A DNA stretch of 64,000 nt, taken from Rhizophagus irregularis (lineage: Eukaryota > Glomeromycota > Glomeromycetes > Glomerales > Glomeraceae). A program made the position numbers and the translations under genes. This document shows positions 3,334 to 57,385 of this stretch, one piece after another. Where the stretch lies: assembly GCF_026210795.1 (NCBI RefSeq), contig NC_089451.1:1100001-1164000 (forward strand), in the 5' to 3' direction. The notes below the pieces were generated by a model. It was not told the DNA's origin and ran no database searches. It saw only the letters and a list, made by a program, of their open reading frames with translations. Numbering within the stretch: the stretch's first letter is position 1; the number at the start of each line of letters is the position of its first letter.

Positions 3334-4584
3334 ACCACGTCAAAATGTCAATCAACACCTGACGTCCTGACGTCGACGCGCGTTAGTTATCAACTGACGC
3401 AAATCGATATTTATGTCATGTGATAAGGATTTTAAGTTTAGAAAAAATTTTAAACTCAAGGCCTGAGGCATATTATAAAATCTTTATTGCTAATTGATCT
3501 ATCAACTAGTAATAAACTGAATTTCACTTTGAAGCTTCCAATGATGATAATTCTCTTTTACTGAAGTAAACTACCATTCTTTTTTTTACAATTAGTTTAA
3601 ATTTAAACTCGCCAATAGAAGGATTTTCAGGATTAGATATGCTAGATACTGTATTTTTCGTTAATTATTTGAAGATCTTAACCTATCATATGCACTAATA
3701 TTACATTTGGTACAAAATAACAATTGAAAATTTTTGACTAAAGTCTGAATTATGACCATAATTTTTGTCTTTAAGATTCACATATCTTTTTTGTTGGATC
3801 AAATCTACTGGAGTAAAAATAAGTTTTTCTGTTTTTTTGGACTTTCTATTTTATTAATACAGCTACAAGCCGAATATGTATTATCACAATGAAAGCAAAA
3901 GCACAACTATAGCAAACGCTTTGCGAGTAATTTCGTGAACTTATTAAAACTTCATCCATTATTTTTATTATTTGCGTAAAAATCTGTTATGATGAAGGCT
4001 TCACAACGTAATGAATATGACTAATATGTCGTTGAATGACTAAAAGAAATAGGTTGTAGTCGGTTATTATGGACCTTAGTTGTTAATAAATCAACATAAT
4101 TACATCTGGAATTAAATTAACATTTTCTTTTAAGTATGATTTTTGAAAATATGAAATGATTCAAGTCAACTAACGATGTTGGCCAACATTTATTAATGAA
4201 CTTTTTTTTTATTTTTGGGATTCACTCTGATATGTTTCTTTCCAAGATATATATAAGACTACAAAATCAAATATGTAATCTCCAATGTTAGATATCTCCT
4301 ATGATTATCATGTTATAACTTATAATGTTAAACTTGAAAGTCAATATATATACAGTATATATATATAAAATGTAATCTATTTACATTGTTATGATTTTAT
4401 AACATACATATAATTCATTTTGTTTAATTTATAAAAACTTTATTTAAAAGATTCAAATAATAATAAATATATTCCGATAAGATATACAAATTGTAGTGAT
4501 AAAGAAAATAAATAGTAAATAATAGATAAAATAAAGAAATTTATATTCTGAATATTTGTAAATTTCCTTCCTTTTCTTTTTTCT
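3334..4584. other. Intergenic, including the 3' flank of K1
   Basis: No gene was found. A GC-rich patch with CCTGACGTCCTGACGTC lies near 3358-3385. From about 4440 upward the sequence is the transcribed 3' flank of K1 and matches, in reverse complement, the 3' flanks after K2 (about 19020-19200) and K3 (about 26560-26720). An AT dinucleotide-rich patch lies near 4345-4370. Confidence 0.55.
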
Positions 4585-6306
4585 TTAGTTGTTTTCATCT
4601 ATAAGAACGAATTATTAAAGTAATTGTTAATATTATTATTAGTAAAATTAATCATGTAGAAGCAAGTTAATGTAAATAAGTACCTAGGTTGAGTTTAGTG
4701 AAATCTATTGCTTCTATGGATTCTAAAATATAAAAAAATAATTGTACATTAAAAGTATTTCATTGAATACTTTTGTAAAATGAGCTAAATTCATTAATTA
4801 CCTGAATATTCTCCAAATGAATTATCATCATCTTTATTATCAATAGCATTTTTTGGTTCTGGAAGATCTTTAAAGTCTAAAAGCCTACTTGTATAAACTG
4901 CTTGAGGATTTGTAGTATATGAAAGAGTAGTACCATTATATGGTAATGAAGTAGGAGTAAACTTTTCATTAATTCTTTCCGCTTCTTCAACTTGCTTTTT
5001 GATTTCACTATCATCATCATCATTGCTATCAACTAATTTATTATATAAATTGTAATATAATAAATCATATAATTCTCGTGCTTTAGGTCGTTTTAAAGGA
5101 TCAGCATCCCAACATTGCTTAATTATGTCCAAAATTAGTTGAGGAATTTTATAATTGGATTTTGGCCTATGCCCTCGACAAATGCTAATGGCTAAGATTT
5201 TATCATGAGCAATATCATGATAAGGAGGAAGTCCTGTACAGACTTCATATGCAATAATTCCAAATGCATAAATATCACTTTCTTGAATATATTCTCCTCC
5301 TCTCAAAACTTCAGGCGCTACATAAGGTAATACTCCATAAATTTTTTTTTCATATTCATTTTGAGAAGATTTTATATTTGCTGGTTGGCATAATCCTAAA
5401 TCAGTAATAAAAGTCCAATTATCATCTTTTAACATATTACCACAATGAAAATCATGATGAATTAATCCTTTTTCATGAATAGATTTGAGGCCATTTGCAA
5501 TATTTTGTAAAATATTTAACTTATCTACCCACTTTATTGAATTAAAACTATTATTTAAATATTGTCTTAAACTACCATCTTTTGCATATTCTATTACCAT
5601 CATAAAATTATTAGATTCTGGATCTCTAGTAATACCATAACATCTAGTTACATAACCAATAATCTTAGTATGTGATTCAATCTAAAAAAGATTCAAAATA
5701 ATAAATATTAGTAAGTTTAACATTTATAATGGAACAATAGTTTTGAAAATGATATACAAATAAGTAACCTACTTCTCTTAAAAATTCGGATGTAATATCC
5801 TGAGAATTGTGTAAACATTTTAAAGCAACCGGAAAATTTTCATATTTTATATTCCATTCTTTACTTCTCTCCCATTGATTATTTTTAGAATCCCATTTTT
5901 CTATATATCCATCTTTCCAAATTGCTTTATAAATAGTTCCAAATCCTCCTTTGGCCAAATATTCAACATCTTCAAATCTATCATATTCAATCCACTCTAA
6001 AATTTCGTTTTGTATTTCTGCTTTAAGTTGTGTTTTTTGAATAAGCTTATCAACTTCATCATTTCCACTAGTCCAATTTTTGAAATTTTGTTGAAAATGC
6101 TTAGCATTACATGACTTACACCAATTACTACCAGTATTAAGTTGCTTACATTCTTTGCATAAACCATTCTTTTTATAACGCTCTTTTAATTCTTCATTTA
6201 ATATTAGTTTATCAATTAACAATTTTTGTTCATCTGTTAAATAGTAATATCTACCAAAATCTTTTATTTGTTCAATTACATCATCACTGAGCTTAAATTC
6301 TTCCAT
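4585..6306 (-). CDS. K1, zinc-ribbon TKL-type protein kinase, 4 exons
   Basis: Predicted non-RD protein kinase of about 488 residues. My splicing gives exons 6306-5773, 5681-4802, 4722-4684 and 4598-4585, with phases that agree and GT..AG ends throughout. The order of domains is a short helical N-terminus, a C-x2-C...C-x2-C zinc ribbon (about residues 50-65), a linker ending E-W-I-E-Y, then the kinase domain. Visible kinase motifs are the glycine loop KGGFG, the beta3 lysine in VALK, the alphaC glutamate in FLRE, HHDFHCGN (Asp and Asn kept, Arg of HRD replaced by His), DLG in place of DFG, APE and SDIYAFG. The tail carries the family block NPQAVYTSRLL. All catalytic residues are present, so activity is plausible. 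The substrate is unknown. It is closest to K2 and K3. A conserved upstream block precedes the ATG. Confidence 0.88.
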
Positions 6307-6478
6307 GTTGCTTTATGTGTTAAACAGAGTAAAAAGATTTTTTTTTTTTAAAAAAAAAGGGGGCAACCTCATATTACGTATTACAGTTGCACAACAGTGA
6401 TCGACAAATCATATTTTAATTTGGGTCAAACAAAGGTGTTAAAAAATCAGCTGATGATCACAAAGTCACGAATAAATC
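6307..6478 (-). promoter_or_regulatory. Conserved kinase upstream block of K1
   Basis: In reverse complement this region matches the blocks upstream of K2, K3, K6 and K7. It has a CAGCTG palindrome (6448-6453) next to GATCA, a GATCACTGTTGTGCAACTGTAA core, a T-run/A-run step and a TTTACTCTGTTTAA element close to the start codon. Conservation in non-coding DNA suggests a promoter/5'UTR. The bound factor is unknown. Confidence 0.65.
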
Positions 6479-7423
6479 TTGATAAAAAATTCTTTTTTTA
6501 TAGATTCTGAAAGAAATTTAGGAATACAGACATCTAGTTTCAAGATTAATATTTTATTATCATTTGTTATTACCATTATATTGTACAAATTATTGCTATA
6601 CATAGACTTGAAGCAACTAACAGCAATTGTGTAACATATTTATAAAAATAATTTCCTTAGGCAGTTTACATGAATAAACTTTTAGACTTTTAAAAATCTT
6701 TTGGTGGTCACGAATATTATTGTTAAATAATGATGATAATTCATTTGAAGAATATTCAGTTAATTTTGGTGTAAACAAATTGATTAATAATTATCTTTTA
6801 TAGGATTCATCAAAATAGATTTTATCAAATAAATATCGGTTCTAAAGGGGATAATCTTTAATTATAATGATTCATTTACTATATAAATAATTAATTAATT
6901 TATATTTTGTCATTTATGTTTAAATAGACCAAAGCAAGTAAATATGATAGTTGGAAAATATTTTTTGCAATTTTGTAGTAATTGCATCTTATCTATTTAC
7001 TAGCTTCGCACTGGGATCAATAAACTTATTTCCAGAATATTATTTGTGTGCACAATTATATGGTTTAAGATTCTTTAAATTTATTAAATTATCGACAAGA
7101 GAAATTTCTTTCTGACGATCTTTCATCCAAAATTATACAAGAAAGTTTTTTTCAAAAAAAATTATTAATAAACGATATATAAATAAGAAACATAAAAAAA
7201 ATATAGTCATTTCCATCAAGAAATGAGTTTAGCACAGACTTTCTTAAGGAAGTTCGAAAATTTTTAATAACTAGTTTTCGAGGAATAATAAAATACGCAA
7301 AAAGAAACTATGAAGTAAAAATAGATGATATATATCCAAACGTCAAAACCAACCGGCTTTTTTCAAAGATATAATTTCTTCCAGTGAAATTATATGATAG
7401 TAATGTAAAAAGAATTGGGTCTT
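6479..7423. other. Intergenic, no gene seen
   Basis: AT-rich sequence without a supported gene. Near 6997-7022 a reverse-strand string CCCAGTGCGAAGC followed by TAGT resembles half of a Helitron 3' hairpin, but the second stem arm is missing. Confidence 0.5.
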
Positions 7424-13084: not shown

Positions 13085-14539
13085 CTAACGAATTTTTTCA
13101 AAATTTTCTCCAGTTTCAACATAACCATATTTACATTCCTTTCTATAGTATTCCAAAATATCTTCAATATTAGTATCTTCATTAATGAGTTCTTTGTCAT
13201 TTAATCTATTAAGGCGATATTGTGCGGCATGACTATAATATCCACGTCTCTGTCTGGCGGCCTTTGAATAAAATTTAACAGCTTTTTCATAATCTTCTGC
13301 TTTTTCGTAATATTCGCCAAGGTATGTTTGCCCCATATCCAATTTTTCTGCCGCTTCTTTCAACAGTTTAAGCCCTCTACTTTCATCTTTTTTATTATTA
13401 ATTAAGATTCTTCCTAGTTTTGCTTTTGCATACAAATTATTGCCTTCAACAGCCTTTTCAAATAATTCTTCTGCTTTCTTTTTATTTTCTTCAATTTCAT
13501 TTTTTATACTATCATAAAAATTATTTTCGTAAAGCAATCCAAGTTGATACGCAGATTGACTATCCTTTAAACCAAGAGATTTTTGATACCATGTTTCTGC
13601 ATTCTTTAAATGTAATGGCTTAATAGGTTTATTACTAATTATTAAAGAGGAAAAATATTCCAATAATCCTGTTTTTTTTTTCTCAATTTCATTATTATGA
13701 AACAATGTAGCAACATTTCTCATTGCTATCCTAGCAATATTTTCATCTTTCGTTTTTTTTGCTATCTTTTTGAAATATTTTTTAGCTTTGGCCGGTTTAT
13801 AATCTTTTGGTTTAGTTAAACCAATAGAATATATAGCTCCTAAACATAATTTTGCTTCAAATGAACCTAAACTTTCAGCTTTTAAATATAAATCTTTAGC
13901 TTTTAAATAACATTTATTAGTTTTATTATAATTTCCATCATTTACTTCATTACTTTTCATATAAAAACCTGCTAATGATAATTTATAATTTATGTCTTTT
14001 TTCTTTTTAGATTCTGCTTCCCATTTTTTCAAAGTTTTTTCACTAATTCCAGTATTCATTTCTTTTTTGATAAATACTTCATAACTTCCCAATCCTTTTA
14101 CGGGATCTTCACTTAGTAAATGTCTAACACTTTGTATCCATTCAGGAAATCCATTAAACATTTTTCCAGTCCATTCTCCCATTTTTTTCCTTCCTTTACC
14201 AGTAATGAAAAGAATTGAAGTATTATTTAAATAGGGAGATTCTTTAATTTTAGTTAAAACTAAATGTTTTCCTTCATTTAATATCATTGTCCCATGTAAA
14301 TCGATTCTAGCTGTAGAAAATGGAATTAATGATTCAGAGTTACCAATCAAACATTCATAATAACCCAAAAATGCATCTTCTATTTTTTTAAGTTTATCAT
14401 TTGGTACAAAACCATCACTATCAGAAGATTGACTTAAAATACTTGGATCTCTGGAATCGGTAAATTGACTTTCAGTTTTAATGGAATGAGTATATGCATT
14501 TGAAATAATAGCAGATTCAGTATCAGAACCTGAAGACAT
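13085..14539 (-). CDS. Smr-like domain plus Sel1-repeat protein, single exon, 484 aa
   Basis: This intact, intronless frame runs from an ATG at 14539 to a stop at 13085. After a Ser/Asp-rich N-terminus (about 1-50) comes a segment with R-I-D-L-H-G-T (about residue 78) and, roughly 35 residues on, L-F-I-T-G-K-G-R-K. This LDxH...TGxG pairing is the signature of Smr domains (MutS2/Cue2 type nucleic-acid nucleases). From about residue 190 to the end the chain is Sel1/TPR-type helical repeats (YKLSLAGFY, AKLCLGAIYSIG, SAYQLGLLYE, AKAKLGRIL, MGQTYLGEYYEKAEDYEKA). Sel1 repeats are protein scaffolds and are strongly expanded in these fungi. The fused Smr-like module is the unusual part. Whether it keeps nuclease activity is unknown. 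It lies alone, with no shared promoter visible. Confidence 0.85.
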   Translation of the reverse strand: MSSGSDTESAIISNAYTHSIKTESQFTDSRDPSILSQSSDSDGFVPNDKLKKIEDAFLGYYECLIGNSESLIPFSTARIDLHGTMILNEGKHLVLTKIKESPYLNNTSILFITGKGRKKMGEWTGKMFNGFPEWIQSVRHLLSEDPVKGLGSYEVFIKKEMNTGISEKTLKKWEAESKKKKDINYKLSLAGFYMKSNEVNDGNYNKTNKCYLKAKDLYLKAESLGSFEAKLCLGAIYSIGLTKPKDYKPAKAKKYFKKIAKKTKDENIARIAMRNVATLFHNNEIEKKKTGLLEYFSSLIISNKPIKPLHLKNAETWYQKSLGLKDSQSAYQLGLLYENNFYDSIKNEIEENKKKAEELFEKAVEGNNLYAKAKLGRILINNKKDESRGLKLLKEAAEKLDMGQTYLGEYYEKAEDYEKAVKFYSKAARQRRGYYSHAAQYRLNRLNDKELINEDTNIEDILEYYRKECKYGYVETGENFEKIR

Positions 14540-15047
14540 GTTAACAGCCTTGTTTTCAATCTTGACGCTTGAAAATCTTTTATTGTACTGAATTTAAAAT
14601 AAAAAAAAAATGGTTTAATATTGTTTGAAACGCCATGTTTAACAGGACTAACAATATTTAGTTTTATTAACTTTTTCTTTTTTGAGTTATCGTTATGAAA
14701 ATCTTTCGGATAATTCCATTTGCGGTCAATATTTATCAAAGGCGCAAAAAAATTACCTCCCTGTATCACTGTCACGACTGCATATTTTACGTTACATATA
14801 AGAGGTTATTAAGAAAGGAATATCGTACAGGAAATTTTGTATCATAAGCCTGCTGTTTTGTTTGTTAAGGTAAAGGTTACACAAAATGTCAACGAAACCA
14901 AAAAGATCAAGTATTTTTTAATTTAATTTAAACTGTTTATAAATTATAATAGATAAATAGACAGAAATCTTTTTAGATTTACCTGAAATTGATGACAAAA
15001 AGTTTATGAAGTTTAAACTTTATTTATATTTTGATAATTTCTTTCAT
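14540..15047. other. Upstream region of the Smr-Sel1 gene
   Basis: No separate gene is supported. A minus-strand open frame here overlaps the start of the Smr-Sel1 gene in another frame and has no recognisable domain. Confidence 0.5.
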
Positions 15048-17337: not shown

Positions 17338-18925
17338 ATGGAAGAATTTACGCTCAGTGATGATGTATTTGAACAAATAAAGGATTTTAATAATCGGAAA
17401 TTAACAGATGAACAAAAATTATTAATTGATAAGCTAATATTAAATGAAGAATTAAAAGAACGTTATAAAAAGAATGGTTTATGCAAAGATTGTAAACAGC
17501 CTAAAACTGATTCGTATTGGTGTCAGCTATGCAATGCCACACGTTTTCAACAAAATTTCAAAAATTGGACTAGTGGAAATGATGAAGTTAATAAGTTTAT
17601 TCAAAAAACACAACTTAAAGCTAGAGAAGATAAGGAAATTTTAGAGTGGATTGAATATGATAGATTTGAAGATGTTGAATATTTAGCTAAAGGAGGATTT
17701 GGAACTTTTTATAAAGCAACTTGGAAAGATGGATATATAAATGGATGGGATTCTGAAAATAATCAATGGATGAGAAGCAAATATTTGGATGTGAATTACG
17801 AAAATTTTCCAGTTGCTCTAAAATGTTTACACAATTCTCAGGATATTACATCCGAATTTTTAAGAGAAGTAGGTTACTTTTTGTATATAACTTTCAAACT
17901 ACTGTTTCATTATAAATGTTAAACTTACTATTATTTATTATTGTGGATTTTTTTTTAGATTGAATTACATATTATGATTAATTCAGATTGTGTAACTAAA
18001 TGTTTTGGTATTACTAGAGATCCAGAATCTAATAATTTCATGATGGTAATGGAATATGCAAAAGATGGTAGTTTAAGACAATATTTAAATAATAGATTTA
18101 ATTCAATAAAATGGGATGATAAGTTGGATATTTTACAAAGGATTGCATATGGCCTCAATTCTATTCATGAAAAAGGATTAATTCATCATGATTTTCATTG
18201 TGGTAGTATGTTAAAACGTGGTAGTGAAACTATTATTACTGGTTTAGAATTATGCCAACCAGCAAATGTAAAATCTTCTCAAAATAACGAATATGAAAAA
18301 AAAGTATATGGAGTATTACCTTATGTAGCACCTGAGGTTTTAAGAGGAGGAGAATATACTCAAGCAAGTGATATTTATGCATTTGGAATTATTGCATATG
18401 AAGTATGTACAGGGCTTCCTCCTTATCATGATATTGCTCATGATAAAATCTTAGCTATTAGCATTTGTCAAGGGCATAGGCCAAAATCCAATTATAAAAT
18501 TCCTCAACTAATTTCAGACATAATTAAACAATGTTGGGATGCTGATCCTTTAAAACGACCTAAAGCAAATGAATTAAAGAGTTTATTATATAATTTATGG
18601 ATTTCAAGTTGTAATTGGAGTGATGATGAATTAAATAAGCAAATTGAAGAAGCAGATAAGATTAATGAAAAGTTAACTTCTACTTCATTATCATATAATG
18701 GTACTTCTCTCTCATATACTATAAATTCTCAAGCAGTTTACTCAAGTAGGCTTTTAAACTTTAAAAATCTACCAGAACCAAAAAATGCTATTGATAATAA
18801 TAAAGATGATGATAATTCATTTGAAGAATATCAGGTAATTAATGTATTAGCTTATTTTACAAAAGTATTCTTGAAATACTTTTAATTTACAATTATTTTT
18901 TTGTTTTTTGAATCTACAGAAGTAA
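17338..18925 (+). CDS. K2, predicted pseudokinase of the zinc-ribbon TKL-type family
   Basis: Exons 17338-17868 and 17959-18834, then a short last exon 18920-18925, giving about 470 residues. The zinc ribbon is intact (Cys 49, 52, 62, 65), as are the glycine loop (about 118-122) and beta3 lysine (162), with the alphaC glutamate in FLRE. The catalytic loop reads H-H-D-F-H-C-G-S: the metal-binding Asn (position 260) is Ser. The DLG motif of its sisters reads G-L-E, so the magnesium-binding Asp (272) is Gly. Losing both metal ligands predicts a catalytically dead kinase, although the frame is open. The C-terminus is also altered: one base is missing in the TATTCAG donor context and the usual TAG acceptor is TTG, so the tail ends early (Y-Q-K-stop) or reads through to 18885. 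It could act as a scaffold or be an early pseudogene. Confidence 0.8.
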
Positions 18926-24866: not shown

Positions 24867-26572
24867 ATGGAAGAATTTAAGCTCAGTGATGATGTAATTG
24901 AACAAATAAAAGATTTTAATTATAATGAATTAACAGATGAACAAAGGTTGTTAATTGATAAGCTAATATTAAATGAAGAATTAAAAAAACGTTATATATA
25001 TTATGGTTTATGCAAAGAATGTAGACAGCCTAATACTAAGAGTGATTGGTGTAAGTCATGTAATGCTAAGCATTTTCAACAAAATTTCAAAAATTGGACT
25101 AGTGGAAATAACGAAGTTGATAAGTTTATTCAAAAAACACAACTTAAAGCTAAAGAATATATGGAAAATTTAGAGTGGATTGAATATGATAGATTTGAAA
25201 ATGTTGAATATTTGGCTGAAGGAGGATTTGGAATTATTTATAAAGCAATTTGGAAGGATGGATATATAAAAAGATGGGATTCTGAAAATAATCGATGGGA
25301 GAGAAGCAAACATTTTGGTACAGATTATAAAAATAATTTTCCAATTATTTTAAAATGTTTACACAATTCTCAGGATATTACATCCGAATTTTTTAGAGAA
25401 GTAAGTTACTTATTTGTATATCATTTTCAAAAACTACTGTTCCATTATAAATGTTAAACTTACTATTTATTATAATGGATTCTTTTTTAGATTGAATCAC
25501 ATATTACGATTATTTCAGGTTGTGTAACTAAATGTTTTGGTATTACTAGAGATCCGGAATCTAATAATTTCATGATGGTAATAGAATATGCAAAAGATGG
25601 TAGTTTAAGACAATATTTAAATAATAGATTTAATTCAATAAAGTGGGTAGATAAGTTGGGATATCTAGTAGATATTTCAAGAGGCCTCAATTCTATTCAT
25701 GAAAAAGGATTAATTCATCATGATTTTCATTGTGGCAATATGTTAAGAGATGGTAATTATACTATTATTACTGATTTAGGATTATGCCAACCAGCAAATG
25801 TAAAATCTTCTCAAATTAATAAAAATGAAAAACAAGTATATGGAGTATTACCTTATGTAGCGTCTGAAGTTTTAAGAGGAGGAGAATATACTCAAGAAAG
25901 TGATATTTATGCATTTGGAATTATTGCATATGAAGTCTGTACGGGACTTCCTCCTTATCATGATATTGCTCATGATAAATTCTTAGCTATTAGCATTTGT
26001 CAAGGGCTTAGGCCAAAATCTAATTATAAAATTCCTCAACTAATTTTGGACATAATTAAACAATGTTGGGATGCTGATCCTTTAAAACGACCTAAAGCAC
26101 GAGAATTATGTGATTTAGTGTCTAGTTTATATCATTCAAGTAGACATTCGGATGATCATAAGATCAAAAAGCAAATTGAAGAAGCAGATAAAATTAATGA
26201 GAAGTTAACTTCCTCTTCATTATCATATAATGGTAGTACACTTTCATATACTACAAATCCTCAAGCAGTCTACACAAGTAGGCTTTTAAACTTTAAAAAT
26301 CTACCAGAACCAAAAAATGCTATTGATAACAAAGATGATGTTGATTATTCAGGTAACTAATGTCCTAGTTTATATTAGAAAAGGTATTCTTGAAATACTT
26401 ATAATTTACAATTATTTTTTTGTTTTCTAGAATCTATAGAAGCAATAGATTTTACTAAACTCAACTTAGGTAATTATTTACATTAGTTTGCTTTCTATTT
26501 CTAGTACATGATTAATTTTACTAATAATATTAATAATTACTTTAATTCGTTCTTATAGATGAAAATAACTAA
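24867..26572 (+). CDS. K3, zinc-ribbon TKL-type protein kinase, 4 exons
   Basis: Exons 24867-25400, 25491-26352, 26431-26469 and 26559-26572, about 482 residues. The architecture is as in K1: C-x2-C...C-x2-C ribbon, EWIEY linker, kinase domain and NPQAVYTSRLL tail ending in the short exons coding S-E-S-I-E-A-I-D-F-T-K-L-N-L-D-E-N-N. Catalytic motifs are kept: glycine loop EGGFG, beta3 lysine (in ILKCL), alphaC Glu, HHDFHCGN, DLG. The activation-segment APE reads A-S-E, a small departure. The third intron is supported because it restores the same tail as in K1. It is a predicted active non-RD kinase of unknown substrate. Confidence 0.87.
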
Positions 26573-36864: not shown

Positions 36865-38254
36865 ATGGAACAAAATTATATCAGTGACAATATATTTAAA
36901 CAAATAAAAGATTTTAATTTTCGGATATTAACCGAAGAACAAGAATTAATAATTAATAAATTAATATTAAAAGAAGAATTAAAAGAATGTTATAAAAAGT
37001 ATGGTTTATGTGATGAATGTAAACAGCCTAATACGGGTAATATTTGGTGTCATTCATGTAATGCTAAACGATTTCAACAAAATTTTAAAAATTGGACAAG
37101 TGAAAATTCTAATATTGATAAATTAATTCAAGAATCTCAAATTAATGCACAAAATAATTGGAAAAAATTGGAATGGATTGAAAATGATAGACTTGAAAAT
37201 ATTGAATATGTTGCTAAAGGTGGTTTTGGAATGATATATAAAGCAATTTGGAAAGATGGATGGATATATAGTTGGAATCATGTAACAAGTAAATGGAATA
37301 GAGATGAAAGAAATACGATTTTTGCTTTAAAATGTTTAAATAATTCAACATTAGAATTTTTAGACGAGGTAAATATTTTATTAATTAACTTATAAATATA
37401 ATATGTTTTACTAATTGTTTATTATATAATAGATTAAAACACACCTCAGAATGAATAATTCAGAATGTATTATTAAAGTTTATGGTATTACTAAAGATCC
37501 TAAAACAAATAATTTTATGATGGTATTGGAACATGCAACTGATGGTAATTTAAGACAAAGATTAAGTAAATATTTCGATTCCTTTAGTTGGAGGGAGAAA
37601 ATTGGCATGTTAAGAGATATTGCGTTTGGTCTTAATGAGATTCATGAAGAGGAATTAATTCATCAAGATTTTCATAGTGGGAATATATTAAACAGTTTAC
37701 GTGATTCCACTACAAATATTACTGATTTAGGATTATGTAAACCAGCAAATAACAAATCAGAGAATTACGAGATCTATGGAGTATTACCATATGTAGCCCC
37801 CGAAGTTTTAAGAGAAAAAAAATATATCCAAGCAAGTAACGTTTATAGCTTTGGGATTATTATATATGAAGTATTTAATATATTACCTCCCTACCATGAT
37901 ATTGCTCATGATGAGTCATTAGCAATAAAAATCTGTCAGGGACAAAGACCAGGATTTAATATAAAAGTACCTCAATTAATAGAAGATATAACTAAACAAT
38001 GTGTAGACGCAGATTCATTAAAAAGACCAACTACAAAATATTTGAAAGAAATATTTGATCAATGGTATGATTTAGTCTATTATAAAAAAGACAGTGAAAT
38101 TTGTAAACAAATTAATGAAGCAGATGTATTTAATGAAAAACTTCCATCTTTTGCAAAATCTGAAAATTTTACATATACAATACATCCTCAAGCTATTTAT
38201 ACAAGTAGATTATTAAATTTTGACAATTTATCCGAACCAAAAAATGCTGATTGA
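36865..38254 (+). CDS. K5, divergent zinc-ribbon TKL-type kinase, 2 exons, 441 aa
   Basis: Exons 36865-37368 and 37433-38254, phase 0. The N-terminus keeps the family ribbon (CDECKQPN...WCHSCNAKR) and N-F-K-N-W-T-S. The kinase domain has KGGFG, ALK lysine, F-L-D-E alphaC Glu, HQDFHSGN, DLG and APE. Two positions nearly invariant in kinases differ. The alphaF Asp of SD-x-YSFG is Asn (S-N-V-Y-S-F-G), and the Trp of Q-C-W-D is Val. These weaken the C-lobe core, so reduced activity is possible though the metal ligands are intact. The beta2-beta3 insert is shorter than in K1-K3, and the tail stops right after S-E-P-K-N-A-D without the small last exons. Its upstream region differs from the other copies, so it is a separate sub-lineage. 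Confidence 0.87.
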
Positions 38255-41871: not shown

Positions 41872-43029
41872 ATGGACAAAACAGTCAATTTCACGCTTGA
41901 TCCAAACCTTTGCCAGCCAATTTCAAGAATTAACCAATTTTTCTCTCTAAGACACTCTTAATGAGATGGAATCGTTTTGAACTTTTTACAAATTTTATAT
42001 ATCATAATGAGAAACCTGATACGACATCTCAAGAAGTATTAGATATTTATAACCAAAATCTTATTGACATTATTACAATCAAAAATATCAATTATGATAT
42101 CGTTAATCATGTTCGTAGCAAAAGAATGTATGAGTTATTTATGTTCGGTCATAGTTTTCTTCCATTACCATCTAACAAACTTGCTTCCAAATGATCTTAT
42201 CAGCAAGTAAAATAGTTGAAAACTATTAGGGATTCATTACTAGATATAAGAAGTTCTCGGGCAAAAGTAAGTAGTACGAAATTCACTGCATAATTGGGAA
42301 ACACATGAGTCATTCTTTATTAACATAGTTTCTTTATTTTAGAAAAGGGTAAATATAACAGATGATACACGAGAAGATTTTCAAAACGTAAGAATAAATG
42401 ATCGAATGAACCAGAAATCTGATGTTTATGCTGTAAGATATAATTAGTGTTTGTCATTCTTATATACCCAATTGTGGTATTGATCTCATTCTTTCATAGG
42501 ATTGGAGTAGTGAGGTCAATAAAGCAAGTTAATCTGGACAATCGGAAATCACATCAGAACTGACATCAGAAGGATGAGGTATTGCCTTCACATCATAAGT
42601 AGATTGTTTAGTTATCACGATATTCAATTGAGACCGAATAGTTGCGTTCTTTTTTTTTTAGGAATCACAACTGAAGATCGCATATACGATGATTTGGAAA
42701 CAAGTGATTTACCAAGTAAGGCCGATAATAAAGATAGTGAAGAACCTCTCAACCCCAGCTTATTAGATAGGAATGATACGAAAGATGATAAGAATGATTT
42801 TTGGTGTTATTCAGACATTTAATCAATAACTTTTGGCTGTTCCTGTTATTATGCAAATGGAACTCAAATACCTCCTCATAAAATCACTGGGCATAAGTGA
42901 CAATAATCCTGACGAAGATATTTTCCAATCCACTGTATCTATTGGACAAAAGCGAAAATCATTTCCAAAGGTTAGAATAAGAATATAATAATAAATTTTT
43001 GTTATATAAATGTCGTCTTGAATTTTATA
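41872..43029 (+). pseudogene. Unidentified host gene relic, 5' part
   Basis: A string of exon-like islands on the plus strand, richer in GC than the surroundings. MDKTVNFTLDPNLCQPISRI begins at 41872, followed by a frame-shifted island (41961-42194). An exon K-R-V-N-I-T-D-D-T-R-E-D-F-Q-N-V follows near 42345, ending at a GTAAGAT donor. D-W-S-S-E-V-N-K-A-S near 42500 is followed by a stop, and an exon G-I-T-T-E-D-R-I-Y-D-D-L-E lies at 42661-42822. The last exon-like piece ends at a GTTAGAA donor near 42979, inside whose intron the big transposon sits. I do not recognise the family. Stops and shifts make it non-functional. Confidence 0.45.
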
Positions 43030-43126
43030 CCCTATAAAAAAAAAATGTGTTAAATTTGTATCAAAATTATGTATAATATTTTGTCTTATAAATGTCTGAA
43101 AATGCACCAATTTGTGTTAATAAAAA

Positions 43127-43308
43127 ATGCAGAATAATTATGTTAATTTTGTATTAAATCTGTGTTATATTTATGTTATTATTATATATAATAAAATGTG
43201 CAATAATTATGTTATTTTTATATTAAATCTGCGTTGTATTTATACTATTATTATACATAATGAAATGTGTGATAATTATATCAATTTTATATTGAATCTG
43301 TATTTTTA
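43127..43308. repeat. Left subterminal tandem repeat, about 69 bp unit
   Basis: Three copies (the third partial) start near 43130, 43200 and 43269, each with ATAATTATGTTA/ATATCA, then TTTTATATTAAATCTG and ATTATTATA. They lie between the left terminus and the stop codon of the minus-strand gene and may be transposase-binding subterminal repeats. Confidence 0.75.
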
Positions 43309-45333
43309 TTAAGTATTACTATTAGCTAACTTGTTGGCTATTCTTTTAGATCGTCTATTAGATTTTTGATTTTCTTGCGTATCCTCGCCTTGATCTGCTT
43401 CTTGCATACTCCTTTTGCTATTATTAACCTTTCGTCCATATTTACTTTTTTGAATTTCGGAATTATTAGAATTAACTATATCTTGTCTATAAAATTATTA
43501 TTAGTTAATAAAATTTCTATAAAATTTACTATTATATAATCTTTTACATACCGCATTTTTAAAATTCTTCTAGACTTTTTGGTATCCAATTTTTTATTAA
43601 TGGATCTTGAATCGTCTTTTTATTTTTTTAATGGAGAAAATTAATTCAGGTCGGCAATCATACTTTTAAAATATAAAATTATAAAACCTTACCTTTACAT
43701 TTATTGTCATTAGTATTTGAATTAGTATTTTTATTATCGTTTACACTATTTGCATCTTCATAATTAGTAGTATCAGTGTCTTCAACATTACCAGCATCTT
43801 CACCATTGTTAATATTGGCATCTTCATCATTATTAGTATCTGCATCTTCATCATTATTAGTATCTGCATCTTCATCATTATTAGTATCGGCATCTTCATC
43901 ATTATTAGTATCGGCATCTTCATCATTATTAGTATCGGAATCTTCATCATTGTTAGTATTGGCATCTTCATCATTATTAGTATTGGCATCTTCATCATTA
44001 TTAGTATTGGCATCTTCATCATTGTCAACAACATCATCATCATTAGTATTATCACTGTTAGTATTGGCATCTTCATCATTGGTAGCATCGGCATCTTCTG
44101 ATACTGAATCTTAATTAAATGGAGATTTAATATATAAATTAATAAATAATAATCAAATAATATATATTATATACATACCATGAATTTTATTAGATTTATT
44201 AGTCTTAGCTACCATCACTTTACTTTTCATAACACGAGAATGCTTAACATTCTTTGTAACTTTTCTTTCTACTTTACCTAAAAATATAAAATAAATAAGT
44301 AATAAACTTTAAAAAATTATGTTTAATCAACATACGCTGTTGATTAATAGCACGACGCATCATCATTTGAATAGCCCAATCACCAATTGATAATGGAAAA
44401 TCTGGATTATTTGATTTGTACTAAAATAATTTGTTATTACTTAATTGTTATTGTTATGTCAATTATAATATCATTAAACTGATATACCTTTTCAACCAAA
44501 TAGCGTTTTTTAGTCATACTTATCTTGCGATATTCTGGAGTATTTCCATTCCATTTTTCTGCTATAAATTCACGCATAGCACTCTCAAATAATAATGATA
44601 ATATTATAACAATGCATCATAGAATATTTGGATATAATTAAATAATATCTTAAACTTACTCTATACGATGCATAAACTTTATTATCAAGTGACAATAGCT
44701 TTGGCAGATCATACCATTTCAAGTTAGTTGGTTTTGCAATTGGTGTCTTCGTTTTCTTTAAAAAAAATGTTTAGTTTAATATTTGCAATTATAAATTAAA
44801 AAAAAAACCCTTACTTGAGAAATTGACATATCTTCAATATCACTTTCATTATCATTTATTTTCTTTTTATATTTTTTTAATAATATTTGTTCATTATTTG
44901 TTTCAGAATCACTAGATATAGTTGTTACTTTATTTGCTTGTTTGTTTTTGCGATGTTTGCGCTTCTTTAATACTTGCTTATAAGTTAACTCATCTGTCTC
45001 AGAATTTTCTGAAACATTAATAATTTTACGTGTTTTGTTATATTTGTATACTTTTTGATTATTTGAAATATTAGTTTCAGAGTCACTAATCTCCTTATTT
45101 GATTTTTTATGGTTATTAATATGTTTAGCTTTAGAATTTTTACCAATGCTTGCTACAGTTAAAGCTAAAGTTTTACTGGAGTTTTGGTCATTTTTAAGTC
45201 GTTCTTTTCGCAACCGTTCATTATCAGCTTTTAATATTTCTAGTTGACGTTTCATATAAGCCATTTCAGGATCACTTATTTCATCAACAAGTTTCTTTTT
45301 ATTTCGTATAGCAGGTTTTTTGTATTTTCCCAT
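43309..45333 (-). CDS. Transposon-carried accessory protein, 8 exons, about 517 aa
   Basis: Exons 45333-44815, 44755-44660, 44583-44488, 44420-44336, 44277-44179, 44109-43693, 43615-43552 and 43486-43309. Every junction is GT..AG with matching phase, and the stop is at 43309. The N-terminus is very basic with a short coiled coil (A-Y-M-K-R-Q-L-E-I-L-K-A-D-N-E-R-L-R), then Ser/Lys-rich low complexity (about 45-150). A conserved-looking core follows (about 174-265: K-W-Y-D-L-P-K-L-L-S, F-I-A-E-K-W-N-G-N-T, I-G-D-W-A-I-Q-M-M-M-R-R). Next is an acidic repeat of the octapeptide N-N-D-E-D-A-D-T (about nine copies) and a basic C-terminus ending R-R-S-K-R-I-A-N-K. No known enzyme fold is visible. A DNA-binding or chromatin partner of the transposase is my inference. 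It is divergent from the transposase across a repeat-bearing promoter. Confidence 0.72.
43805..44030. repeat. 24 bp coding minisatellite (octapeptide repeat)
   Basis: About nine tandem 24 bp units, GCATCTTCATCATTATTAGT plus four variable bases, lie within exon 6 of the minus-strand gene. Because 24 is a multiple of three, several frames on both strands stay open. The spliced minus-strand frame reading acidic N-N-D-E-D-A-(D/N)-T is the one that joins the other exons. Confidence 0.9.
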
Positions 45334-45408
45334 ATTTTAAAAATAAAAAAAATAAAAGTATTTATTTCAGTTGTTAAGAGATTTTGAAAGAAAAATAAAT
45401 ATATTTTC

Positions 45409-45608
45409 GTAAATATATTGTTTGACAAATTTAATATAGTATAAAGTATAAGCTATTTTATAGTTAATATTATACTTTCGTAAATATATTGTTTGACAAA
45501 TTTAGTATAGTATAAAGTATAAGCTATTTTATAGTTTGTTTGACAAATTTAGTATAGTATAAAGTATAAGCTATTTTATAGTTTGTTTGACAAATTTAGT
45601 ATAGTATA
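45409..45608. repeat. Tandem repeat in the divergent promoter
   Basis: Four copies of TTTGACAAATTTAGTATAGT followed by ATAAAGTATAAGCTATTTTA (the last partial). Two are preceded by CGTAAATATATTG. They lie between the start codons of the two divergent genes of the transposon, so they are a candidate shared regulatory or transposase-binding array. Confidence 0.85.
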
Positions 45609-45819
45609 TGAATTATTACATAATTATAAAATCACATCAAGTTCAAACAAATTCTAATATATGAAATACTTAATTAAAAAAAATATTAATCATATAAATT
45701 TTTTTTTCAATGTAACTTTAAATTTACAATTCTTTAATATCTTATATAAACCTTTTTTATAAGTTACAATTTTAATAATTAATAATTTGAATAAATAGTC
45801 CAAAAAAAGTAGTATTATT

Positions 45820-47562
45820 ATGGAGATATCTGATAATCATACAAATCAAGTTTATTGTCGATGTTCTTTATGTGCTGAAAATGGTTATGGTGGTGCTTGG
45901 GTCAGTAGAAACACTCGTTCTAGACATATGAAAACTGAACGTGCAAATCGGTATCAATATTCAAAGCCACTTAATTCAGAATTAACAAGTGACGATGCCA
46001 ATACTAGTAGTAGTACAGAAACACAAATGTCAATACTAGAAGATAATGAATATAATACTGATAATAGTACAGAAATACAAATACCAATAGAAGATTCTTT
46101 AAGGTTTTTTAAGTTATATAATTATTATAACTGCAATTTATTTACTTTATTAAATAAAATTTTTATCATTTTAGTGGTACTACTTCAGAAAATGATCATG
46201 TAATTTATGATTTGGATAATTCTTTTGAAAATTCATCTGATGAATTATTAAGCAGTTCAAGTAGTATGATGTCTTATGATGAAGTTTCAAGTGATTCAAG
46301 TTCAGTGACTGATATTTTACAACAAGGTATATTATCAACTTATTTTAACATGTAATAAAACTTTATTATCTATTAAATTAATTTATTTATTTATGGATAG
46401 AATATGATATTTCTGAAAGTTTATTATCAGCACTAAGATTTCTGAAAGTCAAAATTGAGCACAATTTAACAGATGAAGCATTTCAAGAAACTATGATGGC
46501 ATTTAATAGTAATCCGATCAGTTTACATACAGTTAAAAAGCAATTGAAATCTATTGTTCATATTGAACCTATTTGGATAGATATGTGTCTTAATTCATGC
46601 TGTGCTTATACAGAAAGTTATAGGAAATTAACCAAATGTCCAGTATGTGGATCTGAACGATTTCAACATAAAAAACCATGTAAACAATATTCATATTTTT
46701 CACTTATTGAACGCCTTACTATTCAATATAGAAATTATGATCGTGCTAAAGAATTACGTTATAGAACCAATTATACTTCACAAAAATTATATAAATGTAA
46801 TATTCAAATAGGTGATGTTTTTGATGGAGATCATTATAAAGAACTGGTACAAAATGGACATTTTCAGGATGAACGTGATGTAGCATTATTAGCTTCAGTT
46901 GATGGTTATCAAATATTTAGACAGAAGTCAGATGATTGCTGGATTTTGTTATTTATTTGCTCCAGAAATTCGAGTTAAAAAAGACAACTTTTTAATGGGT
47001 GCAATTATACCAGGTCCTAAAGAACCAAAAGATTTCAATTCTTTTCTTGCTCCTATTGTTTCGGAATTGCAGGAATTAGAAAGTATGATATTAATTTATA
47101 TATATTACATATATATACAAGAAATGGTTACTATATAGGATCAAATTGGATACGACGAAATGAAACTTGGGCACGTGTTAACTACTCAGTATTGGTAAGT
47201 AATTACTCAAAAATTGTTGTTATAAATGATGATTAATATTTAACTATTTTATTTTTTAGGTTTACTTGGAAGTTGACATATATTCAAATAATCAAAGACG
47301 TACACCTGTATTTGAAAAAAGGCCTTTTTATGGTAATATAGAATATTACCTTATGTATGAGTTCAATAATGAGAAATCTATGCTCGCTTATATCAATTGG
47401 ACTGCATCAGTATCAACAGATTCAGTTGGTTTAAAATATTTTACTAAATTTGCAGGTTATGATTTTATAGATGTTATTGCAGTTGAACGATGTGTTGGAT
47501 TTATTAAAGTGGATAATAAATATTATATAGTTGATAAAGAAGCAAATAATACAATTATGTAA
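45820..47562 (+). pseudogene. Plavaka-like transposase, frameshifted and core-deleted
   Basis: Exons by phase: 45820-46103, 46175-46326, 46401-47082, 47139-47194 and 47260-47562. The first exon has C-R-C-S-L-C...H-M-K, a zinc-knuckle-like start. Exon 3 carries C-P-V-C-G-S-E-R-F, then D-E-R-D-V-A-L-L-A-S-V-D-G-Y-Q-I-F-R and D-D-C-W, and after one frameshift near 46955 P-G-P-K-E-P-K-D-F-N-S-F-L. These are hallmarks of fungal Plavaka/tnp2-type transposases. It then jumps by a 56 bp intron-like spacer to the C-terminal part (N-W-I-R-R-N-E-T-W, then A-Y-I-N-W-T and V-E-R-C-V-G-F). The middle several hundred residues, where the catalytic core should lie, are absent. The protein cannot be an active transposase. 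Confidence 0.75.
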
Positions 47563-47845
47563 TAATATAACTCAGTTTTTATATAAAAATTACATATTTT
47601 TTATACAAGTTGAACAAATTACACATTTTTAACACAGTTTACTAAATCTAATACTATTATAACGTAATATAACTCATTTTTTACAATTACATAGAAATTA
47701 CATATTTTTTACACAAGTTGAACAAATTACACATTTTTAACACAGTTTACTAAATCATTCATTTTTTACAATTACATAGAAATTACATATTTTTTACACA
47801 AATTGAACAAATTACACATTTTTAATACAGTTTACTAAATCGAAC
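47563..47845. repeat. Right subterminal tandem repeat, about 95 bp unit
   Basis: Three copies of TTACACAAGTTGAACAAATT, then ACACATTTTTAACACAGTTTA, starting near 47563, 47662 and 47756. TTACACA also recurs singly up to the terminus at 47962. The left end has the reverse-oriented ATGTGTTAA near 43045. These are likely subterminal transposase sites. Confidence 0.8.
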
Positions 47846-47965
47846 TTTTTTAATAATGTTAAGAATTACATAACTACCACACAAATTGAGGAATTTTTAC
47901 ACAGAATATACACAAATGTAGACAGAATTAGCCTGTTTGTTACACAAATCATTTTTATAGGGATA

Positions 47966-50840: not shown

Positions 50841-52447
50841 ATGGAAGGATTTAAGCTCAGTGATGATGTATTCGAGTTAATAAAAGATTTTACTTATTGG
50901 AACTTAACAGATGAGCAAGAATTGTTAATTGATAAGCTAATATTAAATGAAGAATTAAAAGAACGTTATAAAAAGAATGGTTTATGCAAAGAATGTAAGC
51001 AGCCTAATACTGGTGAAGCTTGGTGTAAATCATGTAATTCGAAACATCTTCAACAAAATTTCAAAAATTGGACTAGTGGAAATAATAAAGTTGATAAGTT
51101 TATTCAAAAAACACAACTTGAAGGTAAAAGTTATAGAAATATTTTAGAGTGGATTGAATATGATAGATTTGAAAATGTTGAATATTTGGCCAAAGGAGGA
51201 TTTGGAACTATTTATAAAGCAATTTGGAAAGATGGATATATGGAAATGTGGGATTCTGGAAATAATAAATGGATGAGAAGCAAATGGTCGTCTGAAAAAG
51301 ATTATGAAAATTTTCCAGTTGCTTTAAAATGTTTGCATAATTCTCAGGACATTACAGCTGAATTTTTAAGAGAAGTAAGTTACTTATTTATGTGTAAATT
51401 TTAAGATATTGTTCTCTTATAAATGCTAAATTAGCTAATATTTATTATTTATGAATTCATTTTTAGATTGAATTACATATTGTTACATCTTCTTTTGGTG
51501 TTTATGTAAATCGCTGCTATGGAATTACTAAAGATCCAGAATCTAATAATTTTATGATGGTGATGGAATATGCAAAAAATGGCAGTTTAAGACAAATTTT
51601 AGATAATAGTTTTAATTCAATGTATTGGAATGGAAAATTGGATATTTTACAAAGGATTGCAAATGGTCTTAAAGATATTCATAGCCAAGGATTAATTCAT
51701 CATGATTTTCATTGTGGTAATATATTAAATGGTGTTGATAATTATACTTTTATTACTGATTTAGGATTATGTCGACCAGCAAATGTAATACCTTCTCAAG
51801 ATGAATACAAAAAAATGTTTGGAGTATTGCCTTATGTAGCACCTGAGGTTTTAATAGGAAAAGAATATACTCAAGAAAGTGATATATATGGATTCGGAAT
51901 TATTGCATATGAAGTCTGTACAGGGCTTCCTCCTTATCATGATATTGCTCATGATAAAATCTTAGCTATTAGCATTTGTAACGGGCTTAGGCCAAAATCT
52001 AATTATAAAATCCCTCAACTAATTTTGGACATAATTAAACAATGTTGGGATGCTGATCCTTTAAAACGACCTAAAGCAAATGAATTACATGTTTTATTGG
52101 ATAATTTAGAAACTAGTTATGATAGTGATGATGGTCATGAAATACAACAACAAGTTGAGGAAGCAGAAAGAATTAATGAAAAGTTTACTTCTACTTCATT
52201 ACCATATAATGGTACTACTCTTTCATATACTACAAATCCTCAAGCAGTTTACACGAGTAGACTTTTAGACTTTAAAAATCTTCCAGAACCGAAAAATGCT
52301 ATTGATAGCAAAGACAATGATTCATTTGAGTATTCAGGTAATTCATGTATTAGTTATTTTCACAAATTCTTGAAATGCTTATTAATATAAGATCATCTTC
52401 ATCTTACAGAATCCATAGAAGCAATAGATTTCACTAACTCAACCTAG
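50841..52447 (+). CDS. K6, zinc-ribbon TKL-type protein kinase, 3 exons, 480 aa
   Basis: Exons 50841-51374, 51467-52337 and 52410-52447. The family architecture is complete: ribbon CKECKQPN...WCKSCN, EWIEY, KGGFG, VALK, FLRE, HHDFHCGN, DLG, APE and SDIYGFG. The last exon reads S-E-S-I-E-A-I-D-F-T-N-S-T-stop. One A is missing relative to K1 and K3 (ACTAACTC against ACTAAACTC), which shifts the frame and ends the protein five residues early, so the fourth exon is no longer used. K7 has the same change. The catalytic set is intact and non-RD. Confidence 0.88.
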
Positions 52448-55817: not shown

Positions 55818-57385
55818 ATGGAAGAATTTATTCTCAGTGATGATGTATTTGAGCAAATAAAAGATTTTGAATTTTGGAAATTAACAGATGAACAAAGTTT
55901 GTTAATTGATAAGCTAATATTAAATGAAGAATTAAAAGAACGTTATAAAAAGAATGGTTTGTGTAAAGATTGTAAGCAACCTGAAATTACTCGTGTTTGG
56001 TGTCAATGCAAATTTCAACAAAATTTCAAAAATTGGACTAGTGGAAATAATGAAGTTGATAAGTTTATTCAAAAAATACAACTCAAAGCTAAAAGATACA
56101 AGGAAATTTTAGAGTGGATTGAATATGATAGATTTGAAAATGTTGAATATTTGGCCAAAGGAGGATTTGGAACTATTTATAAAGCAATTTGGAAAGATGG
56201 ATATATGGAAAAGTGGGATTCTAGAAATAATAAATGGATGAGAAGCAAAGAGTCATCGGCCAAAAATTATGAAAATTTTCCAGTTGCTTTAAAATGTTTG
56301 CATAATTCTCAGGACATTACAGCTGAATTTTTAAGAGAAGTAAGTTACTTATTTATGTGTAATTTTTAAGATATTGTTCTCTTATAAATGCTAAACTAGC
56401 TAATATTTATTATTTATGAATTCATTTTTAGATTGAATTACATATTGGTACATCTTCTGTTAGTGGTTATGTAAATCGCTGCTATGGTATTACTAAAGAT
56501 CCAAAATCCAAAAATTTTATGATGGTGATGGAATATGCAGAAAATGGTAGTTTAAGACAAATTTTAAATAATAATTTTAATTCAATGAATTGGAACAAAA
56601 AATTGGATATTTTACAAAAGATTGCAAATGGCCTTGAAGATATTCATAGCCAAGGATTAATTCATCATGATCTTCATTGTGGTAATATATTAAATGGTGA
56701 TTATAATTTTACTTTTATTACTGATTTAGGATTATGTAGACCAGCAAATGTAATACCTTCTCAAGATGAATATAAAAAAATGTATGGAGTATTGCCTTAT
56801 GTAGCACCTGAGGTTTTAATAGGAAAAGAATATACTCAAGAAAGTGATATATATGGATTCGGAATTATTGCATATGAAGTCTGTACAGGGCTTCCTCCTT
56901 ATCATGATATTGCTCATGATAAAATCTTAGCTATTAGCATTTGTAACGGGCTTAGGCCAAAATCTGATTATAAAATCCCTCAACTAATTTTGGACATAAT
57001 TAAAAAATGTTGGGATGCTGATCCTTTAAAACGACCTAAAGCAAATGAATTATATGTTTCATTATATGATTTATATTACGATTATAGGCATAATGATTGT
57101 GAAATCAATAAGCAAAGTAAAGAAGCAGATAAAATTAATAAAAAGTTTACTTCTACTTCATTACCATATAATGGTACTACTCTTTCATATACTACAAATC
57201 CTCAAGCAGTTTACACGAGTAGACTTTTAGACTATAAAAATCTTCCAAAACCAAAAAATGCTATCGAGTATTCAGGTAATCCATGTCTAGTTATTTTCAC
57301 AAAATTCTTGAAATGCTTATTAATATAAGATCATCTTTATCCTATAGAAACCATAGAAGCAATAGATTTCACTAACTCAACCTAG
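55818..57385 (+). CDS. K7, zinc-ribbon TKL-type protein kinase, 3 exons, 467 aa
   Basis: Exons 55818-56339, 56432-57275 and 57348-57385. It is a sister of K6 with the same early stop in the tail. The zinc ribbon is altered: the first pair C-K-D-C is normal, but the second reads W-C-Q-C-K-F, four residues shorter than W-C-K-S-C-N-A-K-H-F, so the spacing is C-x-C. The kinase domain is complete: KGGFG, VALK, FLRE, HHDLHCGN, DLG, APE, SDIYGFG. The stretch between kinase domain and tail is shorter than in K6. Predicted catalytically able and non-RD, with an ankle-deep change in metal binding at the N-terminus. Confidence 0.87.

Follow-up and report, generated by a model that had tools for sequence, protein, structure and literature searches.

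The window, a stretch of 64,000 nucleotides of the Rhizophagus irregularis genome (C23:1100001-1164000), contains a transposable element of 4,933 bp with two genes in head-to-head orientation. The reverse strand carries an eight-exon gene, referred to here as the partner gene, and the forward strand carries the remnant of a transposase gene. The features located are as follows, in positions of the window.

43030-47962, whole element, 4,933 bp, deletion derivative; similarity to other copies ends here, with terminal inverted repeats (TIRs), target site duplications (TSDs) and an uninterrupted target
43027-43029, left TSD, ATA
47963-47965, right TSD, ATA
43030-43040, plus strand, left TIR, CCCTATAAAAA
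47952-47962, minus strand, right TIR
43046-43308, plus strand, left subterminal region with 4 inward TGTGTNA and a 69-bp tandem repeat
47563-47950, minus strand, right subterminal region with 9 inward TGTGTNA and 85-bp and 29-bp repeats
43309-45333, minus strand, partner (accessory) gene, 8 exons, 517 aa, open in 4/4 copies
44815-45333, minus strand, exon 1: N-terminal region, short coiled coil (by eye), charged linker
44336-44755, minus strand, exons 2-4: conserved core domain, ~aa 178-268, as indicated by relatives in many elements, intron positions and selection between related families
44755-44660, minus strand, exon 2
44583-44488, minus strand, exon 3
44420-44336, minus strand, exon 4
44179-44277, minus strand, exon 5: basic linker
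43693-44109, minus strand, exon 6: acidic 8-aa repeat
43552-43615, minus strand, exon 7
43309-43486, minus strand, exon 8: basic C-terminal tail, RRSKRIANK
45334-45819, intergenic spacer that separates the divergent genes; tandem repeats of 71 bp and 47 bp at 45400-45608
45820-47562, plus strand, transposase remnant, in which the Cys/His N-terminus, a portion of Transposase_21 and the C-terminal exon persist
46956-46957, plus strand, site of an 11-bp deletion (frameshift), by comparison with L003, which has no such deletion
47116-47117, plus strand, point at which 1,565 bp of the core are deleted; L003 (C18) has the identical junction

The partner gene and the element that carries it

The eight predicted exons of the partner gene could be found and joined as the first-pass annotation had described. 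Their phases fit, all seven predicted introns run from GT to AG, and a single stop at 43309 closes a frame of 517 aa. Exon 1 by itself comprises 173 open codons in AT-rich DNA. The acidic octapeptide repeat was recovered as well, with 9.6 units of 24 bp at 43794-44023 and a match of 94%. The basic tail of exon 8 resembles, by eye, the tails RRSRRLATSK and SGRISNQLRK of partner proteins from other families, noted in L021 (2681-2905, minus strand) and L032. The tandem repeats between the two divergent genes are a candidate bidirectional control region.

The genome (146.7 Mb, 32 contigs) was searched at the DNA level for copies of the element. Four full-length copies were found with 96-100% identity, namely the window copy on C23 and copies on C18 (L003), C24 (L004) and C1 (L005), together with partial copies on C15 and C28. 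All four have inverted CCCTATAAAAA ends and are flanked by 3-bp TSDs (ATA in the window, CTT on C18, TAG on C1 and CCC on C24). Three joined flanking sites were made and two of them were searched, and an uninterrupted match was obtained for both. The joined flanks of the window copy matched C23:2747895-2748492 (95% over 599 of the 600 query bases); for the C1 copy, four places were matched at 98-99%. Given these uninterrupted sites, the TSDs and the ends, the window element is a genuine insertion of a mobile unit. The partner frame is open in every full-length copy with 517, 501, 496 and 496 aa, and exon 6 measures 417, 369, 354 and 354 bp, each a multiple of three.

The transposase gene was confirmed to be frameshifted and to have lost its core, due to the 11-bp deletion after 46956 and the 1,565 bp gone at 47116/47117. 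The C1 copy keeps the 1,565 bp missing from the window, and they hold exons with CRYC, HYILH and PIERVCG. Hence, the deletion takes the CxxC, HxxxH and Glu motifs out of the window transposase, and among the catalytic residues (assigned by eye) the first Asp region alone seems to be left. The C24 copy contains a hAT element in its first transposase exon (L004 2587-4569; zf-BED, and Dimer_Tnp_hAT at 2e-23). Furthermore, a frame change, which may be an assembly error, is common to the C1 and C24 copies; the related C22 element has one uninterrupted open exon over the stretch concerned. An uninterrupted transposase was found in none of the four copies of the window family in this assembly.

The C18 copy has the same large-deletion junction as the window, with different flanks and a different TSD. 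A single deletion and subsequent movement account for this best, and the deleted derivative apparently moved without its own transposase, on one made elsewhere. The earlier suggestion that the partner may be used in trans thereby gains indirect support.

TGTGTNA was found four times at the left and nine times at the right end, always facing inward and never in the opposite sense there, so that inverted subterminal motif arrays are present at both ends in the window family. None was found in the 4.2-kb interior, and the whole window contains 47 on both strands. Mononucleotide shuffles gave means of 0.1 (left) and 0.2 (right) and none out of 2,000 reached the observed count; as the motif was picked after inspection of the ends, these values are descriptive. 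No comparable inward array was found in the L020 family, which has the same ends and 3-bp TSDs in both of its two copies. Thus, the lineage as a whole does not share the motif, and the arrays are considered candidate binding sites in the window family.

Around the element, six protein kinase genes form a spread-out cluster (PK_Tyr_Ser-Thr, E 2e-32 to 4e-39). One lies on the minus strand (4794-5681) and five lie on the plus strand (17959-18885, 25491-26360, 37433-38254, 51467-52390 and 56432-57328), each preceded by an open frame of 184-211 aa. A further open frame of 502 aa at 13085-14593 (minus strand) gave a weak match to the Sel1 repeat.

A recurrent core beside related transposases

The first-pass annotation could not name a domain in the core, and library searches did not supply a name either. 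Pfam, NCBIfam and PDB chains returned no named family for the core, with rows at chance level only, and neither the 517-aa protein nor its core matched a Pfam family at E up to 10, Transposase_24 included. No DNA-binding family, Myb/SANT included, matched the core in the libraries searched; KilA-N was matched at E 0.036 by one of seven members. Pattern searches gave 11 matches in IMG/VR and 21 in a prokaryote genome collection, with none confirmed in either.

Relatives were obtained from the genome itself. Partner exons 1-5 were used as query in a protein search of the genome, which gave 66 rows. Without the 25 rows that stem from the window family or fragments of it, 41 weak places were left (E 1e-6 to 0.73). 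At 26 of them, a divergent (head-to-head) transposase match was present less than 5 kb away (1.6-3.1 kb). The expected proximity is 0.0053 per locus in either orientation, which amounts to ~0.2 in total versus the 26 observed. By score and spacing, these 26 places fall into five families (L020 with 3, L021 with 1, L022 with 8, L026 with 13 and L039 with 1) and therefore are not 26 independent cases. The other 15 places comprise six with a divergent transposase 5.9-17.5 kb off, three with a same-strand and one with a convergent transposase, and five with none near. Counted from the transposases, 26 out of 78 places had a core match within 5 kb and 52 had not. The latter include four of the window family, omitted by design, and a further search lists cores near a few more of them (C19, C9, C12 and C1).

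An alignment of eight families spans 87 columns (83 profile positions), and the residues L, L, Y, K, N, F, P, W, A, N and R are invariant in it. The weakest putative member is L033. It contains an intronless tnp2 transposase frame of 985 aa at 3863-6820 (plus strand) and a head-to-head gene at 3505-2300 (minus strand). This gene, with exons chosen by eye, scored 19.5 bits against the core profile, compared to 13.1 bits for the best shuffle among the matches listed (1,974 of 2,001 sequences), and may be very remotely related to the partner.

The intron positions were compared over 12 loci. The donor after exon 4 has phase 1 and a corresponding position in all of them and splits the codon as C/GT in ten, as A/GT in L039 and as G/GT in L033 (placed by eye in the latter). 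The intron between exons 3 and 4, before the FP..DWA part, was present in 10 of the 12 loci, with the donor moved by ≤2 codons in L021 and L028. The splicing of the core is therefore supported by comparison, and introns 1 and 5-7 find their support within the window family. The core is a recurrent unnamed domain that can be traced through many elements of one genome. Inspected by eye, a family with this core that is present in many copies (L022 657 onward, L023 767 onward) has CCCTATGAAAAAAGCCTGTGTGA at its ends and subterminal repeats of its own built around GGCCGAATTTAGGAATTATTGTG.

An exception to the pairing is a related core on C17 (L027, C17:4257247-4257656). Its three exons are open, and L027 and L041, which together cover 4249500-4260500 (11 kb), gave no transposase match around it. 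A transposon-like end, CATAGGG, was seen by eye 2.6 kb downstream at 4260304. The C17 core could represent a transposase-free derivative, a solitary partner gene or, given this downstream end, a remnant. Upstream, a CCCTAT..TATAGGG pair at 4252404 and 4253994 (~1.6 kb apart, TAT on both sides, by eye) seems to delimit a separate small element, perhaps a non-autonomous relative. L025, too, had no transposase match in its 6 kb, but its core shows decay.

Selection on the core and decay of older copies

For the core, pN was lower than pS in all 36 family pairs, with pN/pS between 0.23 and 0.86. Pairs with dS near or below 1.1 and protein identities of 60-71% were close enough for dN/dS. The lowest ratio was obtained for L019/L020 with ~0.13 (dN 0.15, dS 1.13; Fisher 6e-9), followed by L021/L028 with 0.22 (dN 0.18, dS 0.81; Fisher 1e-5) and L021/L030 with 0.28 (dN 0.26, dS 0.92; Fisher 1e-4), all Fisher values being based on rounded site counts. 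In L028, a member of one of these pairs, the frame is broken in exon 2, and a stop is present in exon 3 of its near-twin L029. Pairs including the window showed 31-40% identity and pN/pS of 0.50-0.86; they are distant and their dS is unreliable, therefore the conclusion on selection concerns the lineage and not the window copy. Judged by these substitution patterns, the core is under purifying selection between related families, mainly families other than that of the window.

A comparison of dN/dS across genomic copies had been suggested as a check of the annotation. It was informative between the related families, with the core ratios given above, and the four young copies offered too few changes. 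In exons 1-5 of the window family, each of the six pairs differs by 0-2 synonymous and 1-3 nonsynonymous changes, which is too few for statements on selection. The partial copies have changed further. Compared to the window, the C15 fragment differs at 18/256 exon positions (7.0%) and 7/151 intron positions (4.6%), and the C28 fragment at 15/211 (7.1%) and 8/198 (4.0%), respectively, with gaps in both exons and introns of each fragment. Their exons changed no slower than their introns, as expected of dead copies. Neutral decay of copies, which the first-pass annotation had named as evidence against its reading, was thus found in these two fragments.

The distances of core and transposase among seven families were not significantly correlated (Mantel p 0.07; 0.24 without L033) and, therefore, co-divergence of the two is unproved.

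Classification and proposed role of the partner protein

The Pfam matches of the transposases are Transposase_21 (tnp2) and DUF4218. PF02992 was matched at E 1.1e-10 by the exon of the C1 copy, which is present in interrupted form in the window, and at E 1.3e-24 by the relative L033. Between the second D and the last E, the C1 copy has, by eye, CRYC as C(2)C and HYILH as H(3-4)H, followed by PIERVCG; the corresponding motifs of L033, also by eye, are CRFC, HYLLH and PMERLCG. By these features, the element is placed in the CMC/CACTA-EnSpm superfamily in the broad sense and appears TRC-like with regard to its ends and Pfam domain. TIRs starting with CCC, a TRC trait, are present in the window family and in two other families, in which they start with CCCTATRAAAA. 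The initial description as a second gene in a CACTA-related element with a dead transposase agrees with Transposase_21, the TSDs and the deletions.

Three closer assignments were not borne out. The element is not CACTA sensu stricto, as its ends are CCCTATAAAAA (CCCTATRAAAA in the two other families) and not CACTA/CAC. Plavaka, which had been named as an option, was set aside because the Pfam lists contain Transposase_21 and DUF4218 and no Plavaka family, and the ends are CCC..GGG and not TGT or CATCA. Membership of the partner in the TNPA family by sequence (TNPA/TNP1, Transposase_24) was not supported by any Pfam match at E up to 10.

In its organisation, the element resembles maize En/Spm with TNPA and Tam1 with TNP1. 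A second protein without transposase domain stands beside a tnp2-type transposase, subterminal repeats are inverted, and deletion derivatives move in trans. The partner also diverges faster, since the window and six relatives have 16-35% identity in the core and 49-56% in the transposase stretch. According to the accessible text of PMC2613891, TNPA binds the subterminal repeats of Spm, the proteins can also operate in trans, on deletion derivatives, and TNPA carries the suppressor function. Whereas the same strand yields TNPA and TNP1 by way of an alternative transcript, the window's partner is a separate head-to-head gene; its protein is without any Pfam match, and the ends are CCC and not CACTA.

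TRC elements (SmTRC1 and animal and fungal relatives; DeMarco 2006, PMC1636069) share Transposase_21 and TIRs starting with CCC. In the part of that paper available, a TNPA-like role is proposed for the small second TRC protein, which is an alternative splice product there, in contrast to the separate gene that recurs across families here, and this protein is reported as not found in other animal or fungal elements. TSDs are 3 bp here and 2 bp in two insect TRCs. Plavaka (CMCT clade; Kojima 2025, PMC12730594) is likewise a fungal EnSpm relative with C(2)C and H(3-4)H. However, as far as the accessible sections of this survey go, its ends are TGT..ACA or CATCA..TGATG and not CCC..GGG, most of the clade has CA..TG ends, and no such partner gene is described. 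The same sections contain the two-protein Harbinger/Nuwa elements, in which a separate DNA-binding protein (a Myb/SANT partner) also accompanies the transposase. Those elements have another transposase, though, and the window core has no Myb/SANT match. CMC-EnSpm families are named in the accessible parts of the R. irregularis surveys PMC11075540 and PMC8647823, and Plavaka too in the former, in whose main text, as available, the term 'accessory' is absent. A literature search of titles and abstract beginnings found no paper describing such a partner gene.

The partner gene is likely to encode the second, TNPA-like protein of a two-gene, head-to-head CACTA/EnSpm-related transposon, with the window copy as a trans-mobilised deletion derivative. 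The protein is probably DNA-binding. It would dimerise via its N-terminal coiled coil, bind with its core to the inward-facing subterminal TGTGTNA arrays and draw the two element ends together for a transposase that is provided in trans. The window copy lost its own catalytic core and would have been mobilised by another copy. Its open partner frame would reflect a young insertion and a protein kept functional across the lineage, and not use by the host.

Youth by itself has almost an even chance of being a sufficient explanation of the open frame. The partner gene would then be a passenger, currently without a role in trans, in a dead element that inserted recently. Divergence between the copies is low (18 mismatches between the window and L003 in an alignment of 4,953 columns), and the older C15 and C28 fragments show no constraint. 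In addition, chance could explain why the transposases have four lesions and the partner gene, which is shorter, has none (length-based estimate ~0.19). This accounts for the window copy, but not for the selection and the repeated pairing across families. It is unlikely, though conceivable by analogy with the suppressor activity of TNPA (PMC2613891, as available), that the derivative acts as a repressor and damps its family by giving partner protein without transposase. A form that kept the partner gene and lost the catalytic core occurs at two sites, as such a repressor might, yet these are the only two copies of the deleted form found.

Use of the partner protein or a relative by the fungus for its own regulation, also raised in the first-pass annotation, is very improbable. 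A 1.5-kb open frame beside a dead transposase and the open C17 core without a transposase match might suggest it. However, the window gene exists in four near-identical copies inside transposable units and its older fragments are unconstrained, therefore co-option by the host is not supported, and the C17 core may be a remnant in view of the end downstream. Transposons of this kind can carry captured genes, but a captured host gene fragment as cargo can practically be dismissed, as the core recurs head-to-head in several families with 47-61% identical transposase stretches, which is unexpected for cargo.

The window element itself is an ordinary deletion derivative, and the new part is the traceable partner core, which is under selection between related families. 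More tentatively, and with somewhat less than an even chance, this core could be an undescribed DNA-end-binding domain and the obligate, separately encoded partner of a whole two-gene, CCC-ended tnp2 lineage in this fungus, in which partner-only derivatives would have spread as mobile regulators (repressors or helpers) of the family.

CACTA-type partner proteins are reported to share little similarity between elements in the accessible parts of PMC2613891 and PMC1636069, whereas one core is traceable here. With core, transposase and intron positions followed across families, the co-evolution of a second protein with the ends becomes directly testable. In R. irregularis, two thirds of the transposable elements are given as unclassified in the available text of PMC11075540, and the core could serve as a marker for annotating such elements.
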